From a virus: a stretch of 38,371 nt of DNA. Both the position numbers and the translations under genes were made by a program. Where the stretch lies: positions 1 through 38,371 of the IMG/VR virus record IMGVR_UViG_3300048833_000752; one strand, 5' to 3'. Below are positions 848-21,677 of this stretch, piece after piece (within the stretch, counting starts at the first letter, position 1; each line of letters starts with the position of its first letter). Under the pieces are notes generated by a model, which did not search any database, was not told the DNA's origin, and saw only the letters and a list, made by a program, of their open reading frames with translations.

Positions 848-1984
848 TCACCCCGCCTTGCGCTTCGCTTTCGGCGCGGCCGTGCTGAGCTTGCCCCCCG
901 CCCGAGCCTGCAGCTGCAAGCCAGTAGCCGCCTCGGCCGCGCGCAGGCCCGCGTAGAACGCGCTGTGGACCTTGTCCTTGGTGCGCTCGGCGTGGGTGTA
1001 GGTGCGGCGCATCAGGTTCGTGTCTGACCACCCGCCCCATTCGCCCGCGGCTTTCTCGTCCAGGCGCTGGCGGACGTTCATCTCCTGACCGAAGCCGTGA
1101 CGGCCGGCGCTGTGGAACGGGATAAACTCGATCCCCGCGCGCCTGCAGGCGGTTTCCCAGCCCTTCCTCGGCCCGCTCCTCGAGCTCCACCCGAAGACCC
1201 GCAGGTTTTCCTTCTCGCGTTTCCAGCCCCGCGGATAGAGCGGCGGCAGGTTCGCCAGCTCGACCACCAGTTCGGTCGGGATATCGAGCCAGCGATCGGG
1301 TGCGCCCTTGGCGCCCGGGATGCAGGCCTTGCCGTTCTGCAGATCGAGGTGCTTGCCCGGGTGCATCTCGCACGCCTGACTGATCCGCGCGCCGGTGCAG
1401 AACATCAGCAGGGCGAGCGCGCCGTGGCGGGCGCTGGCGTGCTGGCGGAAGGCGAGCAGCCATTCCCAGCTGCCCGGCGGATAGCGCTTGCGGCCGGTGC
1501 GGCCGCGCGCCTTGTCCTGCTGGGTCGCTTCGAGCTTCGTATAGCCCTTGATCCGGATCGGCGGGCATTTGCCCAGATCGTGAGCGTTGTTGATCACCGC
1601 GCGGATCGGGCTGATCACCTGCCGCGTCCATGTCGCGGTGCCGCTGTCGGGATAGAGTTCCGCGCCCAGCTCGCGCACGAAGCGCGGCGTGATCTGGGTG
1701 ACCAGCATCTCGCCGATCTTGGTGGTGACCGGGATCAGGTATTCGGCGGTCTTCGGGTCGGCATCGTAGAGCAACACCGCCTCGGCGAAGGTCAGCCCCG
1801 CTTCGTCCCCGAGAAGGTGACGACGGATCCGGCGGGCTTCCTCTTCGCGGATCCACGCCCTTGCGCCCTGTTCGTCAAGTGCGCCAGTGCTGCAGCGGTA
1901 GTAGTCTGTGACGGGCGCGCCCTGGTGTTCGATCCGGCCCCGGACCCACCATGTCGCGCCGCGCCGGTAGCATTCGAGTGGCAT
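848..1984 (-). CDS. int: Tyrosine recombinase / phage integrase
   Basis: 378 residues starting at the ATG at 1984, preceded by a GGGGAG ribosome site; the frame is open further upstream but that part reads as shadow. The N-terminus ([16 protein letters not shown]) is typical of integrase arm-binding domains. The catalytic domain begins near residue 170. Visible catalytic residues are R200 (CTGARIS), H291 and R295 (FHSAGRHGFG), W319 (GGWSD, the usual H/W position) and nucleophile Y329 (RRTYTH). The enzyme would insert and, with an excisionase, excise the phage at the adjacent tRNA-Val. It is the last gene of the leftward operon, so PL transcription would reach it. H and R are four positions apart, not three as in the textbook motif; I believe this GRH variant occurs in related phage integrases. 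Confidence 0.93.
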   Translation of the reverse strand: MPLECYRRGATWWVRGRIEHQGAPVTDYYRCSTGALDEQGARAWIREEEARRIRRHLLGDEAGLTFAEAVLLYDADPKTAEYLIPVTTKIGEMLVTQITPRFVRELGAELYPDSGTATWTRQVISPIRAVINNAHDLGKCPPIRIKGYTKLEATQQDKARGRTGRKRYPPGSWEWLLAFRQHASARHGALALLMFCTGARISQACEMHPGKHLDLQNGKACIPGAKGAPDRWLDIPTELVVELANLPPLYPRGWKREKENLRVFGWSSRSGPRKGWETACRRAGIEFIPFHSAGRHGFGQEMNVRQRLDEKAAGEWGGWSDTNLMRRTYTHAERTKDKVHSAFYAGLRAAEAATGLQLQARAGGKLSTAAPKAKRKAG

Positions 1985-2193
1985 CGGGTGTTCTCCCCTT
2001 CGTCGCCCGCGAGGATGCGCTCCATCTGGGCGGGCGTTATCAGCATGGCGCGGCCGATCTTGCAGCGCGCGCCGAGGCGGTTGGCCCGCTCGCGCAGGGT
2101 GCGCTCGGAGATCGTTATCCCCCGCTCGGCGAGCAAGGCAATCCAATCGGCGGGCGGGCGGGCTTCGTCAAGCGTGGGGCAGCCGGTGGTCAT
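1792..2193 (-). CDS. Excisionase-like small HTH protein
   Basis: 133 residues from ATG 2193, which overlaps the stop of the upstream gene as ATGA. Residues ~15-60 ([19 protein letters not shown], then RERANRLG, then [13 protein letters not shown]) read as a MerR/Xis-like winged helix-turn-helix: a first helix, a recognition helix around [10 protein letters not shown] and a wing with a final helix. Position directly upstream of integrase fits a directionality factor. The C-terminal ~65 residues are low-complexity, rich in Ala, Thr, Ser and Arg, and lie out of frame over the first ~190 bp of the integrase gene. That part may simply be the consequence of a late stop. Identity as excisionase is inferred from position and fold only. 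Confidence 0.62.
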
Positions 2194-2567: not shown

Positions 2568-2599
2568 TACGCGCCCCTGCCGACAGGCAGGGGCGCGTA
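2568..2599 (-). other. Perfect 14-bp hairpin with GACA/TGTC loop between early genes
   Basis: Bases 2568-2581 pair without mismatch with 2586-2599 around a 4-base loop, mostly G-C pairs. It lies 12 bases beyond the stop of the Gly-X gene. No T-run follows on either strand, so it is not a standard intrinsic terminator. It could protect or separate the two parts of the leftward mRNA or act as a processing site. Confidence 0.7.
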
Positions 2600-2610
2600 A
2601 AATGAGGGGT

Positions 2611-2829
2611 TTACCCGTCCCCGTACCCGTCCCCGTACCCGTACCCGTCCCCGGACCCGTACCCGGACCCGTCCCCGTACCCGTACCCGTCCCCGGACCC
2701 GTACCCGGACCCGTCCCCGGACCCGTACCCGGACCCGTCCCCGTCCCCGTACCCGTCCCCGTACCCGGACCCGTCCCCGGACCCGTCCCCGTACCCGGAC
2801 AGGATCGTCGGCGTGTTGGGGTCAGCCAT
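2611..2829 (-). CDS. Low-complexity (Gly-Tyr/Asp/Ser)n protein
   Basis: 72 residues from ATG 2829. The start overlaps the end of the upstream gene by 8 bp (ATGGCTGA), strong evidence of translation. After a short unique head ([11 protein letters not shown]) every second residue is glycine, and the others are only Tyr, Asp or Ser, continuing to the stop. All 31 glycine codons of the tract are GGG, and the alternating codons are only TAC, GAC or TCC, so the DNA is a degenerate hexamer GGG-KMC. There is no signal peptide or charged lysine/arginine in the repeat. I cannot name a function. A disordered, Tyr-rich acidic chain of this kind could self-associate or bind proteins, but that is speculation. 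Confidence 0.75.
2614..2799 (-). repeat. Hexanucleotide GGGNNN tract with G-quadruplex potential
   Basis: On the minus (coding) strand runs of three or four G recur every six bases for ~190 bp, about 31 runs with 3-base loops. This is far beyond the four runs needed for a quadruplex. Units shuffle between GGGTAC, GGGGAC and GGGTCC. Length change by whole units would keep the reading frame. Confidence 0.9.
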
Positions 2830-3139
2830 TGAACACCTCGAATTCACGGATCGAGGTTTCGGCCTCGGTTGCGGCCTCGATGATTTCGCAATTCTCGGTG
2901 AGGTGAATGCGCGGCACGGCTGCGCTGACCTTGCTACCCTTCTCAAGGCCTGTCAGAGCAACTGCGTTGAGAAAGTCCCCGGTCGGCCCCTTCTTGACGC
3001 GCCAGTACCAGAGGCGTCGCGCTTCCGTCAGCACGCATTCGCGGCCTTCGTGGCTCTCCAGAACACCAGCGTGCACACCTGCATCGCGGCAGCGGACGAT
3101 GACGTACTTGCCGATCATCCCGTTGTTCAAAATGCTCAT
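2822..3139 (-). CDS. DUF6948-like small protein
   Basis: 105 residues from ATG 3139, with AAGGAGA eight bases upstream. The start [20 protein letters not shown] followed by [10 protein letters not shown] matches my memory of the phage/plasmid family DUF6948: a small, probably all-beta N-terminal region resembling an SH3-type barrel, then a variable helical part. Its role is unknown. The motif in which an opened barrel ends in RRLWYW is the recognisable feature here. The C-terminal half ([25 protein letters not shown]) also looks well folded. It sits in the middle of the leftward operon and its last 8 bases overlap the start of the Gly-X gene, so the two are likely made together. Confidence 0.72.
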
Positions 3140-3204: not shown

Positions 3205-3456
3205 TTACGACTCTGCCAGTTTCGCCCTGGCGTTGGCGGCCCAGCGGACCAGCAGCTGCTCGCCCTTGTCGTAGGTGCTGCTGGCCGTCACGCCTGCGAG
3301 GCGGATCGAGTAGGCGTTGGTTTGCTGGTCGACGATCTTCGCGCCCATGCCGCGCAGGGCGTTCTTGACGGCCTCGGCATCGAAGCTGTCAGCGTTGCTG
3401 GCGGCGCGGATCAGATCGGTCGCGGCGATCAGCTTCTGGCGGCGGGCGGGGGTCAT
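3205..3456 (-). CDS. Hypothetical small early protein
   Basis: 83 residues. The ATG at 3456 overlaps the stop of the DHH gene as ATGA, so translation is coupled. The N-terminal half looks helical (RRQKLIAATDLIRAASNADSF) and the rest mixed. No cysteine pairs, signal or membrane segment are seen. I do not recognise the family. A 65-bp spacer with a ribosome site separates it from the next gene. Confidence 0.68.
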   Translation of the reverse strand: MTPARRQKLIAATDLIRAASNADSFDAEAVKNALRGMGAKIVDQQTNAYSIRLAGVTASSTYDKGEQLLVRWAANARAKLAES

Positions 3457-4352
3457 GTGCGCGGCACCTTGAAACCTGCCGCGTTGCGATGCCCGCCGCC
3501 GCCGAACTTCTTGGCGATTGCGGAAACGTCGGCGCAGTCGTCGCGCGAGCGCAAGGAGTAGCTGATGCTATGTTCGCCACGCACAATGGCGGCGGCGAAT
3601 TCCGCAAACGGCCAGTCCTCGAGCAGGCGATGGCAGACGTCGCTGGCAAGGCCATACGGGCAATCGACCCCGAGCCCATATTGCCCATCGATCACGACGG
3701 TGCCGGCGCGCCGCACAATCTCGTCGACCAGCTGGTCGCGATAGCCAGCAATAGCCTCCCCGCGCGCCACGAACCCATCGATATCGGCGTCAGCCTGATC
3801 CCAACGCTCGAAGGTTGCCGGGCCGCTGGTCAGCGCAAGGTGCAACAACTTGCTCGCGTCGCCCAGTTCAAACCGCCAGAGGTCGCGATCTTCGACGAGG
3901 TTGACGAGCATCGGGCGCGAGAGCCTAAGCTCGGCGTCGTCGTTGGCAAAGTCCCACGCCATACCTGCCCCACTGCGCTCCATGTCAAACATGGCGATGA
4001 TCGGGCCGACCGCGTCGATTGCCTCGGCGATTTCCGATTGTCCGACAAACGCCGGCTTGCCATCGCGGTCGAGCTGGAACGGCGCCAGATCGGCAGCTGC
4101 CGTCTTGTGGTGGTCCAGAATTACAACCGAGGCGGCGCCATCCATCGCCAAGCCCCGCAATTCCGCTTCGGGAAACGAGAAGTCGACGATCAGGATGTGC
4201 TTGCCTTTGCAGTCAACATCGGGAGCCATGCCGTAGTTGCGGGCGATGTAGGCCGGTGCGTCGCCCCAACGCTTCCAGACGGCCCAAGCGGCGGTGAAGC
4301 CGTCCATGCACTTGTCGTGATAGATCACGATGTCGGGTCGATAATCAGCCAT
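3453..4352 (-). CDS. DHH/DHHA1-family phosphoesterase (NrnB/oligoribonuclease-like)
   Basis: 299 residues. All metal-binding motifs of the DHH superfamily are visible: H12/D13 and D17 in YHDKCMDGFTAAW, D57 in LIVDFS, D80-H81-H82 in VILDHHKTA and D155 in VEDRDLW. Near the C-terminus FGGGGHRNAAGF (about 283-293) is the DHHA1 substrate-binding loop. Family members use two Mn ions to hydrolyse short oligoribonucleotides, pAp or linear and cyclic dinucleotides; which of these this one cuts cannot be told. The protein is probably cytoplasmic. The start overlaps the upstream gene by 8 bp (ATGGCTGA). In a phage, it could recycle nanoRNA or remove a nucleotide second messenger. Confidence 0.9.
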   Translation of the reverse strand: MADYRPDIVIYHDKCMDGFTAAWAVWKRWGDAPAYIARNYGMAPDVDCKGKHILIVDFSFPEAELRGLAMDGAASVVILDHHKTAAADLAPFQLDRDGKPAFVGQSEIAEAIDAVGPIIAMFDMERSGAGMAWDFANDDAELRLSRPMLVNLVEDRDLWRFELGDASKLLHLALTSGPATFERWDQADADIDGFVARGEAIAGYRDQLVDEIVRRAGTVVIDGQYGLGVDCPYGLASDVCHRLLEDWPFAEFAAAIVRGEHSISYSLRSRDDCADVSAIAKKFGGGGHRNAAGFKVPRT

Positions 4353-18636: not shown

Positions 18637-20676
18637 ATGACGAAGACTGCCCTTCTCGGCGCCACCTCGCTGGTGGCCGCCGCGGGATCGCTTGTGCGCG
18701 ACGGCGAGGCTGTTCCGGCCGAGCAGCTGACGCGCGAGCTGGCCTTCGAGGTCCGCGCCGAAACGATCAACGAAGAGGCTCGCACCGTCGAGCTCAGCTT
18801 TTCCTCGGAAGAGCCCTACCAACGCTGGTGGGGCACCGAGGTTCTGGATCACAAGTCCGCTTCCGTCAGGCTTGGCCGCCTGAACGCAGGCGGTGCCTTG
18901 CTGATGGACCACAATACCCGCGACCAGGTGGGTGTTGTGGAACGCGCCTGGATCAAGGGGCGCAAGGCCTACGCGGTTGTCCGGTTTGGTCGATCGGCGC
19001 GTGCGGAAGAGGTCTTTCAGGATGTCAAGGACGGCATCCGCAAGCTGGTGAGTGTCGGTTACCGGATCCACGAGCTGGTGCTCGAAAAGGCCAAGGACGG
19101 CCAGGAAACCTACCGCGCCACCGACTGGGAACCCTACGAAATCAGCCTGGTGGCTGTCCCTGCCGATCCGTCGGTCGGGGTTGGCCGCGACGGCGAACCT
19201 GCGGGCTTCGACCCGCGCACGCTTCTCCAAACCGAAGAGGAAGACGATATGTCCGCTACCCGTAATGCCGGCGGGGGCGCTGCCCCTGTCATCACCACCC
19301 CGGCCGTCACCCCGGCGGCTCCGGTCACTGGAACCCGCGCGGCCGATCCGGCACCGGTTACCCCGGCGGCTCCGGCCGGTCCCGACGCCGCGCAGATTCT
19401 GCGCGACGAGCGCGCCCGCATCGCCAACATCCGCGCGATGGGCGAGCGGCTCAACTGCCGCGAGCTTGCCGAGACCGCGATCACCGACGGTCGCAGCCTC
19501 GATGCGTTTATCTCCGACTATCAGGCCCGCACCGGCCCGGCGTCGCAGATCCGCACTCCGGAAAGCGCCGACATCGGCATGACCGCCCGCGAGGCGCGCA
19601 ACTTCAGCTTCATCCGGCTGCTCAACGCGCTCGCCAACCCCAACGACATGGGCGCCCGCGAAGCCGCCGCCTTCGAGTTCGAGGCGTCGGAAGCGGCGCG
19701 TTCGCGCTCGGGCCGCGAGAACCGTGGCAATGCCACGATCCCGGTCGACGTGATCCGCACTGCCCTGATGGAAGGTCAGCGCGATCTGACCGTCGGCACG
19801 GCGGCTGACGGCGGCAACACCGTGGCGACCGACCTGATGGCCTCGGCCTTCATCGATCTGCTGCGCAACCAGCTGGCCCTGAACCAGATGGGCATCCGCA
19901 TGATGACCGATCTGGTCGGCAACCTTGCCATTCCGCGCCAGACCGGCGGGGCGACGGCGTTCTGGGTGGCTGAAAACGCCGCTCCGACCGAAAGCCAGCA
20001 GTCGTTCGGCCAGGTGCCGCTGACCCCGAAGACCGTCGCGGCCTTCACCGACATCAGCCGGCGCCTGCTGCTGCAGAGCTCGATGGATGTCGAAGCCTTC
20101 GTCCGCATGGACCTGGCGATGGTGCTGGCGCTGGCGATCGATGCTGCCGGTGTGACCGGCACCGGCGCTTCGAACCAGCCTCGCGGCATCCTCAACACCG
20201 CCGGCATCGGCGCGGTGGTGGGTGGCACCAACGGCGCGGCACTGACCTACGGCCACCTGGTCGATCTGGAAAGCGCGGTTTCGGTCGCCAATGCCGATGT
20301 CGGCAACCTCGGCTATCTGGTCAATGCGCGCACCCGCGGGCACTGCAAGAAGACCGTCAAGTTCGGTTCGGGCACCGAAGCCACGATCTGGGACAACGGT
20401 ACCGAGCCGCTCAACGGCTACCGCGCCGGCGTGTCGAACCAGGTGCCGGGCAACCTCACCAAGGGCACCGCTTCGGGCATCTGCTCGGCGGTGATCTTCG
20501 GCAACTGGTCGGACCTGATCCTCGGCATGTGGAGCGGGCTCGACCTGCTGGTGAACCCCTACACCGGGGCGGATGCCGGCACGGTCCGCATCCACGCCTA
20601 CCAGGACGTCGACTTCGCGGTGCGCAACGCCGCGAGCTTCGCCGCGATGGTCGACGCGCTGACCCCGGCGGCCTGA
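18637..20676 (+). CDS. Prohead protease-major capsid protein fusion (HK97 type)
   Basis: 679 residues in one frame. Residues 1-~200 are a U35 prohead protease: H92 in LLMDHNTRDQVG, S139 in RKLVSVGYRI and a C-terminal YEISLVAVPADPSV motif. A linker rich in Ala/Pro/Thr (about 205-250) leads into a scaffold-like helical region, and residues ~350-679 form the HK97-fold capsid (TVGTAADGGNTV...TVAAFTDISRRLLLQSS...QDVDFAVRNAASFAAMVDALTPA). M205 (19249) follows GAGGAAGACG and could start a capsid-only product. The protease would cut the scaffold and release itself. A GC-rich hairpin follows the gene. Confidence 0.93.
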   Translation: MTKTALLGATSLVAAAGSLVRDGEAVPAEQLTRELAFEVRAETINEEARTVELSFSSEEPYQRWWGTEVLDHKSASVRLGRLNAGGALLMDHNTRDQVGVVERAWIKGRKAYAVVRFGRSARAEEVFQDVKDGIRKLVSVGYRIHELVLEKAKDGQETYRATDWEPYEISLVAVPADPSVGVGRDGEPAGFDPRTLLQTEEEDDMSATRNAGGGAAPVITTPAVTPAAPVTGTRAADPAPVTPAAPAGPDAAQILRDERARIANIRAMGERLNCRELAETAITDGRSLDAFISDYQARTGPASQIRTPESADIGMTAREARNFSFIRLLNALANPNDMGAREAAAFEFEASEAARSRSGRENRGNATIPVDVIRTALMEGQRDLTVGTAADGGNTVATDLMASAFIDLLRNQLALNQMGIRMMTDLVGNLAIPRQTGGATAFWVAENAAPTESQQSFGQVPLTPKTVAAFTDISRRLLLQSSMDVEAFVRMDLAMVLALAIDAAGVTGTGASNQPRGILNTAGIGAVVGGTNGAALTYGHLVDLESAVSVANADVGNLGYLVNARTRGHCKKTVKFGSGTEATIWDNGTEPLNGYRAGVSNQVPGNLTKGTASGICSAVIFGNWSDLILGMWSGLDLLVNPYTGADAGTVRIHAYQDVDFAVRNAASFAAMVDALTPAA

Positions 20677-20694
20677 TCGACCTGACGCAGTAAA

Positions 20695-20724
20695 CCGGGG
20701 GCGGCGCGCCTACGCCGCCCCCGG
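20695..20724 (+). terminator. GC-rich 12-bp hairpin after the capsid gene (weak terminator or processing site)
   Basis: CCGGGGGCGGCG (20695-20706) pairs with CGCCGCCCCCGG (20713-20724) around a 6-base loop. Only CTTTG follows, so termination would be partial at best. Partial termination or mRNA stabilisation after the capsid gene would favour high capsid output. The remaining 87 bp to the next gene show only its AAGGAAG ribosome site. Confidence 0.5.
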
Positions 20725-20811
20725 CTTTGCGGCCTGCCCCGCTCGCTCCTCTCTCCCTCCCCCAAGTCGACGGAGCGGGGCAGACCCCAAGGCATCAACC
20801 CAAGGAAGCTG

Positions 20812-21144
20812 ATGATGACCGACAAGAAGACCAAGGCCGACCCGCTGGTCGCGGCCGAAACGATCCTGATCGAGGGCAAGGCCTTTGAACGCGGCGACAA
20901 GATCACTGGCGTTTCGAAGGACGAGCTCGACCGCGCCGCCATCCAGCGCCGCGTGATCCGCAAGAGCGTGTTCGATGCGCAGGGTGTTCCCGCGCCCGAG
21001 ATCGGCGGCACCGAGCCGGAGACGGACGAAGGCGGCGACGGGGCTGGCGACACCACCGGCACCGAGCCGGAGACGGACGAAGGCGGCGACGGGGCTGGCG
21101 ACACCACCGGCACCGGTGACGGCAAGGCGGGTTCGGGCGAATGA
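20812..21144 (+). CDS. Small head-module protein with a duplicated acidic tail
   Basis: 110 residues from ATG 20812 (or 20815), AAGGAAG upstream. Residues ~10-60 (PLVAAETILIEGKAFERGDKIT, then LDRAAIQRRVIRKSVFDAQG) look like a small ordered domain, as found in short proteins behind capsid genes. The C-terminal half is a Gly/Asp/Glu/Thr-rich tail in which 17 residues beginning GTEPETDEGG occur twice, identically even in DNA. A role in head decoration or assembly is a guess from position. Confidence 0.65.
   Translation: MMTDKKTKADPLVAAETILIEGKAFERGDKITGVSKDELDRAAIQRRVIRKSVFDAQGVPAPEIGGTEPETDEGGDGAGDTTGTEPETDEGGDGAGDTTGTGDGKAGSGE
21007..21108 (+). repeat. Exact 51-bp tandem duplication inside a head gene
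   Basis: Copies 21007-21057 and 21058-21108 are identical and followed by GGCACC of a third start. As 51 is a multiple of three, the reading frame is kept. Perfect identity suggests a recent event. Confidence 0.95.
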
Positions 21145-21350
21145 AGGCGATCATTCTCCACACCGCCGCGATCGACAATTCGGGCGCACGCCGCGATGCG
21201 GGCGAGACCCTGACCGTGGGCGACGGCGCGGCCGAGATCACGCTCGAGTTTGCCAAGGCGCTGATCGATGCCAGTTCGGCCGTTGAAGCGCCCGGCCCGC
21301 GCAGCCGCGCGAAAGTCCAGCCTGACGCGACCTCGGACGAGGCCGAGTAA
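21141..21350 (+). CDS. Small hypothetical head-module protein
   Basis: 69 residues, ATGA overlap with the preceding gene. MKAIILHTAAIDNSGARRDAGETLTVGDG shows a beta hairpin style, then ITLEFAKALIDASSAVEA is helical, then a charged tail. Similar short proteins occur between the capsid and head-tail genes of siphoviruses. I cannot name the family. Confidence 0.65.
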   Translation: MKAIILHTAAIDNSGARRDAGETLTVGDGAAEITLEFAKALIDASSAVEAPGPRSRAKVQPDATSDEAE

Positions 21351-21356
21351 CACGCC

Positions 21357-21677
21357 ATGACCGACCTTCCCGGCGGCGATAACGCGGCCCGCGCCATCCA
21401 TCGCGCGATGGGCAAGCTGGTGCGCTACACCGGCGCCGGGGTGGTTTCGAAGTCGATCTATGCCGTCCGCACCCATGGCGCGGCCGGTTCGCTCTATGCC
21501 GACGAAAGCGCGCGGTCGCTGTCGTTCGAGCTGCGCAAGGAAGACCTCGCCGGGATCCCTAAGCGCGGCGACATCCTGATCGAGGGCAATGGCAACGGCA
21601 CGATCTGGACCGTCGACGAGTTCGTCGATCTGGATGACGTCGATGCCTTCCGCGTGACTGTGAAGGCGGCGGCATGA
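21357..21677 (+). CDS. Head-tail attachment protein (lambda FII-like)
   Basis: 106 residues. The core RYTGAGVVSKSIYAVRTH, then LSFELRKEDLAGIPKRGDILIEGNGN, then WTVDEFVDLDDVDAFRVTVKAA is a small beta barrel in the style of lambda gpFII (Phage_attach), where a strand ending in KRGD/xIxxxG is typical. It would form the collar that accepts the finished tail. Its end overlaps the next gene by ATGA. Confidence 0.72.
   Translation: MTDLPGGDNAARAIHRAMGKLVRYTGAGVVSKSIYAVRTHGAAGSLYADESARSLSFELRKEDLAGIPKRGDILIEGNGNGTIWTVDEFVDLDDVDAFRVTVKAAA

Follow-up and report, generated by a model that had tools for sequence, protein, structure and literature searches.

A gene that alternates glycine with a second residue along almost its whole length, and that spells every one of those glycines with the same codon, raises the question of whether selection has acted on the nucleic acid or on the encoded protein. 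Such a gene lies in the window, the whole stretch of 38,371 nucleotides analyzed here, which is a complete viral record (IMGVR_UViG_3300048833_000752). A sequence-only reading had taken the constant GGG codons to reflect either expansion of a hexamer or selection on a G-quadruplex (G4) element. We approached the question through the gene itself, its counterparts in other phages and the way in which the repeat varies among them.

The repeat gene and its surroundings

The (Gly-X)n gene, hereafter the GX gene, lies on the minus strand at 2611..2829 and encodes 72 amino acids, comprising 11 residues followed by (GX)30G and a TAA stop. Its G4-capable hexamer array, (GGGNNC)30GGG, spans 61 codons (2614..2796, minus strand), in which glycine is GGG in 31 of 31 codons and alternates with 30 partner codons, namely TAC (11), GAC (11) and TCC (8). 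The repeat first described as (GGGNNN)31 is real, though strictly it reads (GGGNNC)30-GGG-TAA; the accompanying account of a 72-residue frame, of exclusive GGG usage, of the three partner codons and of an 8-nt overlap with the upstream gene proved exact. In that overlap (ATGGCTGA, 2822..2829, minus strand) the GX ATG meets the stop of the upstream gene, and an SD-like GAGG is located within 2836-2839 on the same strand, six bases 5' of the ATG.

Elsewhere in the prophage GGG makes up 19.6% of glycine codons and GGC 58%, in agreement with the earlier expectation that GGC should have appeared among the glycines. Because GGG accounts for so small a share in the rest of the record, its use at all 31 positions is not a matter of codon usage; under independent draws the probability would be ~1e-22, a figure that ignores the tandem origin of the array. 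The array has a Tandem Repeats Finder score of 300 and a partial 42-bp periodicity, and no second array of this kind occurs in the whole record. Along the string of X residues, identical neighbors occur 3 times against 9.3 expected (shuffle p ~0.02).

The GX product is 50% glycine, acidic, Tyr-rich and of low complexity, and comparison with Pfam, PHROGs and NCBIfam returned no real match. TrAA12 (PF22807) was rejected as a low-complexity match, at 16.7 bits against a cutoff of 30.9. RTX calcium-binding repeats, built on the nonapeptide GGxGxDxUx, were set aside since the GX period is two residues and contains no hydrophobic position, and so was the target of a diversity-generating retroelement, since the changes among TAC, GAC and TCC are T/G and A/C changes with hexamer copying and are not adenine-specific. 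A perfect 14-bp hairpin with a 4-nt loop (2568..2599; RNA z -4.05) begins 11 bp past the GX stop and is not followed by a T-run in the GX direction; it was discarded as a family feature, the median z of the relatives being -0.81.

Several other observations concern the surroundings of the gene. A tRNA-Val (CAC) at 629-703 lies close to an integrase gene (848-2146, minus strand), and the translation of 4-516 resembles, by eye, what we take to be an SppA-like C-terminus; the record apparently resembles a prophage that inserted at a tRNA gene or close to one, and it includes some host flank. Upstream of the GX gene and its partner, and in the same direction, is a DHH phosphoesterase gene (3453-4352, minus strand; PHROG 4771, E 2.4e-79), separated from the pair by a small gene at 3205-3456. 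A 51-bp direct repeat at 21006-21115 (2.2 perfect copies) corresponds to a Ser/Pro-rich repeat of 17 amino acids in a putative minus-strand ORF at 20598-21476.

The DUF6948-GX pair in other phages

The gene directly upstream of GX (2822..3139, minus strand, 105 aa) belongs to DUF6948 (PF22253; Pfam E 1.4e-25, 89.7 bits against a cutoff of 27). The low-complexity filter of BLAST masks the GX repeat, and searches with the repeat itself gave no match in one run and a single short, chance-like match in the other, so we used two other routes. In the first, viral contigs were scanned with the DNA pattern (GGNKMY)8, which is blind to the glycine codon; more than 120 stretches were found, many of which are similar small ORFs, each with one dominant glycine codon. 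In the second, searches were made with the upstream DUF6948 protein and without selection on the repeat; one of these queries was the DUF6948 of a locus found through the repeat pattern, its matches again being picked by DUF6948 alone. A search of genome contigs contributed three loci. All 108 assessable loci obtained in this way (82 of 82, plus 26 others) have a GX ORF directly behind DUF6948, a contig that ends 51 nt past the DUF6948 stop having been left out. Related short Gly-X phage ORFs, for which a search had been proposed from the sequence alone, are thus readily found.

The two genes most commonly overlap by 13, 17, 14, 8 or 11 nt, and GGAG, GAGG or AGGA precedes the GX ATG at 32 of 75 loci, where 6.4 would be expected, a 5-fold enrichment. 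Named phages that carry the pair are those of the Pectobacterium Ymer group, Dickeya phage Setonix, Iodobacter phage PhiPLPE, Vibrio phage IKEMa6-1 and Chlorobiaceae phage CV-1-33. DUF6948 and the GX ORF of PhiPLPE, the Ymer-genus phages, IKEMa6-1 and CV-1-33 are like those of the window, with the differences that their arrays use GGC and that all are labeled hypothetical; in PhiPLPE the GX gene is unannotated. In CV-1-33 (L161) the array is annotated in another frame as a Met-Ala repeat, CV133_gene25; the GX frame, which overlaps DUF6948 by 13 nt, is likelier to be the gene. The array of ct8d5349 (L163) mixes GGG with GGA. Where GX arrays occur without a DUF6948 recognizable at the Pfam level, a small protein with a similar pattern is encoded upstream in 7 of the 9 cases with upstream DNA, and these divergent proteins align to the DUF6948 profile (hhalign E 1.5e-5, probability 80%). 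Two loci have gone further, one with the pair duplicated in tandem and with glycine codons more mixed than usual (L131:5700-7440), the other with five tandem GX genes that share the N-terminus MGLKAFLKF and the C-terminus PNLTSAGATVVEE and differ in their arrays (L057:1720-2970). These genomes portray DUF6948 and GX as a widespread two-gene phage module, the translation of which is probably coupled.

At least three kinds of C-terminal domain are found on some GX proteins. The TGSC-x-x-GR type, of ~153 aa, occurs at L022:5039-5497, L063:388-852, L065:6985-7509, L095:1824-2285, L120:8591-9052 and L125:717-1229 with the conserved motif FAHGETLR...WHxxLTGSCxxGRxxF; its model (pLDDT 91.8) has no convincing match among solved folds, and the domain has no Pfam or PHROG family. 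The others are an LHAT type (L062, L101) and a short type (L027, L128). Together with the short N-terminal segment that precedes the array, these folded domains invite the explanation that GX is no more than a flexible spacer by which they are tethered, and that the window protein is a bare linker of little function left after domain loss. We consider this unlikely, though it is the alternative that survives best: in 70 of 122 closed arrays, as in the window, the protein is bare and ends no more than 5 residues past the repeat, and the bare form is kept across distant phages, so that it is improbable that all of them are relics.

Turnover of the array and choice of the glycine codon

The arrays of close relatives indicate how the repeat changes. 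In eight cultured Pectobacterium and Dickeya phages the GX genes measure 162, 204, 222, 222, 222, 252, 258 and 270 bp, each length divisible by 6, as the sequence-only reading had anticipated. The cultured Pectobacterium phages Ymer and Amona have identical flanks, with 1786 bp preceding the GX gene and 1100 bp following it, and their GX genes, of 222 and 204 bp, differ in the order and length of the array. Loci L209 and L217 are separated by exactly two GAC to TCC replacements, each a change of two bases, and by zero silent changes. The patterns in these two pairs show copying of whole hexamers rather than point mutation, which upholds the proposal of hexamer expansion. Sequencing of the Ymer-genus phages used a NextSeq instrument with 300 cycles, followed by metaSPAdes assembly (PMC11445585), and short-read assembly could distort their array lengths. 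Several contigs from a single population, although assembled independently, have identical arrays (L166-L168, L171-L173, L175/L177 and L225/L226), and, judged by such comparisons, array order and length turn over fast, yet with some stability. That the two genes form a pair, and that its array turns over by hexamers, are points on which the compared genomes leave us highly confident.

To describe composition we used 99 distinct arrays, taken from loci fetched through DUF6948 with the repeat disregarded. The X residue is Ser, Tyr or Asp at 2692 of 2926 positions, alanine, one step from both Asp and Ser, amounts to 1% of X, and the third position of X is occupied by C in 82 arrays and by T in 16. 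Within arrays, diversity is low at the third positions of the glycine and X codons (Gly3 0.058, X3 0.055) compared with the first and second positions of X (0.436 and 0.503). A neutral simulation, with a simple model of block duplication and deletion plus mutation, never produced X diversity above the silent diversity at Gly3; real arrays have an ~8-fold excess. As neutral turnover fails to give this excess, either selection or a biased process would be needed to preserve the mixture of Tyr, Asp and Ser, whose maintenance is strongly suggested by the sequences. The low-complexity Tyr/Asp protein conceived by the sequence-only reading is accordingly retained among relatives as a Gly-X protein.

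The same excess, along with the different arrays of phages that have identical flanks, could also be explained if the array were a diversified target, in which hexamer order and length are under diversifying selection for variation of a binding surface or for escape from a host factor. We regard this as rather improbable. The arrays shared by several contigs of one population suggest that change is fast and not programmed in each generation, and composition, rather than order, could be the feature that is kept.

The glycine codon behaves differently from the X residue. GGC is the dominant glycine codon in 75 of the 99 arrays, GGG in 16, GGT in 7 and GGA in 1, and diversity at Gly3 between arrays (0.399) contrasts with the near uniformity within them. 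The switch can be wholesale between sisters: L115 (GGG in 21 of 21 codons) and L129 (GGC in 44 of 44) share a branch with support of 100/94, which the window adjoins (99/91), and the closest relatives, L129, L131 and L137, use GGC throughout. On the tree, seven rows with GGG require seven separate changes, as placed from few alignment columns and with several weak placements. Codon preference was rejected as the cause of GGG, which is the commonest glycine codon of the genome in none of the seven testable GGG arrays. The share of GGG among arrays approximates its share among glycine codons, as if a single founder codon had been drawn per array.

These patterns bear on the proposal that the array is chiefly a nucleic-acid element, in which selection would favor GGG tracts that fold into G-quadruplexes, on the mRNA or the coding strand, for example in the control of translation or replication. 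The window does contain 31 GGG tracts with 3-nt spacers, and the G4-forming potential ascribed to its RNA was confirmed in prediction, the RNA energy improving by 37 kcal/mol, from -92.8 to -129.6 kcal/mol, when G4s are permitted; a version of the gene recoded with GGC has zero predicted G4s. Across the family, however, G4 motifs are confined to GGG arrays and occur in 9 of 83 arrays, or 16 of the 99 distinct ones. Since GGG and GGC replace each other wholesale between sister loci, the GGG arrays arise separately on the tree and their frequency is that expected from one founder codon per array, selection for quadruplexes is not supported, and we consider this explanation very improbable. On this comparative evidence the quadruplex is a by-product in the window and not a conserved feature. 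The sequence-only reading had set mixed glycine codons, as a sign of protein selection, against constant GGG, as a sign of selection on nucleic acid, and neither describes the family, in which codons are uniform within an array and different between arrays. Rather, the computational comparisons show hexamer duplication or conversion homogenizing silent sites within an array while the codon type drifts between phages, GGG being one such type, and they show a constraint at the level of the protein, with Gly at one position, Tyr, Asp or Ser at the other and only synonymous differences between arrays.

Equally improbable is the view that the array is a neutral microsatellite, inside a gene or close to one, whose protein product is not under selection. 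Tandem hexamers do lengthen and shorten by slippage and this array is free of stops in all frames, but where arrays differ they do so at third codon positions in the GX frame; X3 is nearly always C or T, which the codons of Tyr and Asp demand; alanine is scarce; the start, overlap and SD are kept; and the array always lies behind DUF6948.

The predicted Sm-like partner and a possible role for the chain

The AlphaFold2 (AF2) model of the window DUF6948, built from 60 loci, is of high confidence (pLDDT 91.7, pTM 0.84) and forms a five-stranded barrel with helices between strands 3 and 4 and at the C-terminus. Nearly all of the 50 PDB matches listed by Foldseek are Sm/LSm chains or complexes that include such chains, with a best E of 2.1e-3, so that no match among those listed reaches E 1e-3. 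All rows of a VIA-align comparison are Sm/LSm, with Z up to 8.4, though a Z near 8 can also have its source in the common small-barrel arrangement. A profile search of DUF6948 against the PDB gave no significant match. Neither part of the Sm signature, D-x-x-M-N of loop 3 or R-G of loop 5, is present in the DUF6948 alignments, and for this reason the sequence does not imply RNA binding. We therefore describe DUF6948 as having a predicted Sm-like fold, which does not imply a function of the Sm type.

The explanation that we favor, with somewhat more than even confidence, is a conserved DUF6948-GX module with hexamer turnover, a maintained residue mixture and a tail supplied in trans. In it, the gene for the predicted Sm-like barrel protein precedes that for the low-complexity (Gly-[Tyr/Asp/Ser])n protein, and the translation of the two is probably coupled. 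The GX product would be a disordered, acidic, Tyr-rich and flexible chain that serves the Sm-like DUF6948 protein, possibly as a ring, in trans, by making multivalent contacts with RNA or protein or by competing for them; where relatives have a C-terminal domain, the chain may act as a flexible linker. Hfq has a disordered acidic tail in cis, and Sm proteins have Gly-rich tails in cis. The idea of a tail in trans draws on this analogy and on the invariant pairing of the two genes, and we put it forward tentatively. It is similarly possible, though we would not yet expect it, that phages of many hosts share an obligatory pair, in which a divergent Sm-like protein is joined by a separate, fast-rearranging Gly-[Tyr/Asp/Ser] polymer with an actively maintained mixture, as an RNA- or protein-organizing system whose conserved effector is the low-complexity chain and not a folded domain.

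Tandem coding repeats and Sm-like proteins of phages are already known; in the literature searched, their combination and the way in which it evolves seem not to have been described. Full-text searches with DUF6948, GX peptide strings and related combinations of terms found no description of the pair, the DUF6948 query giving no match, and the examined parts of the Ymer genus paper make no mention of glycine, of a hypervariable gene or of a GX gene (PMC11445585). The pair is nevertheless common, with well over 100 distinct loci found with little effort. It offers a clear natural example of concerted evolution acting on a dipeptide, in which silent sites are frozen and coding sites mixed, and it brings together, in phages, a predicted Sm-like fold and a low-complexity partner, with cultured Pectobacterium, Iodobacter and Vibrio phages allowing tests. 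For readers of raw sequence it is a caution that a repeat can keep a codon perfectly constant without its nucleic acid having a function.

Among known systems, the closest to DUF6948 in its modeled structure are the Sm/LSm proteins, including archaeal SmAP, eukaryotic Sm/LSm and bacterial Hfq, with which it is predicted to share a fold. Several Sm/LSm proteins carry Gly-rich or acidic disordered tails. DUF6948 differs from these proteins in its lack of the signature residues, and the GX chain differs from their tails in being encoded by a separate gene and in being acidic and Tyr-rich rather than Arg-Gly. With hypervariable in-frame tandem repeats of the microsatellite or minisatellite type, GX arrays have in common the gain and loss of whole units and the concerted evolution of silent sites, whereas the GX unit is a single dipeptide and its non-silent positions are far more diverse than its silent ones. 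Low-complexity domains of the FUS and silk types likewise alternate Gly with Tyr and Ser; in contrast to these, the GX alternation is strict, Asp accounts for ~1/4 of X, and the chain is of phage origin.
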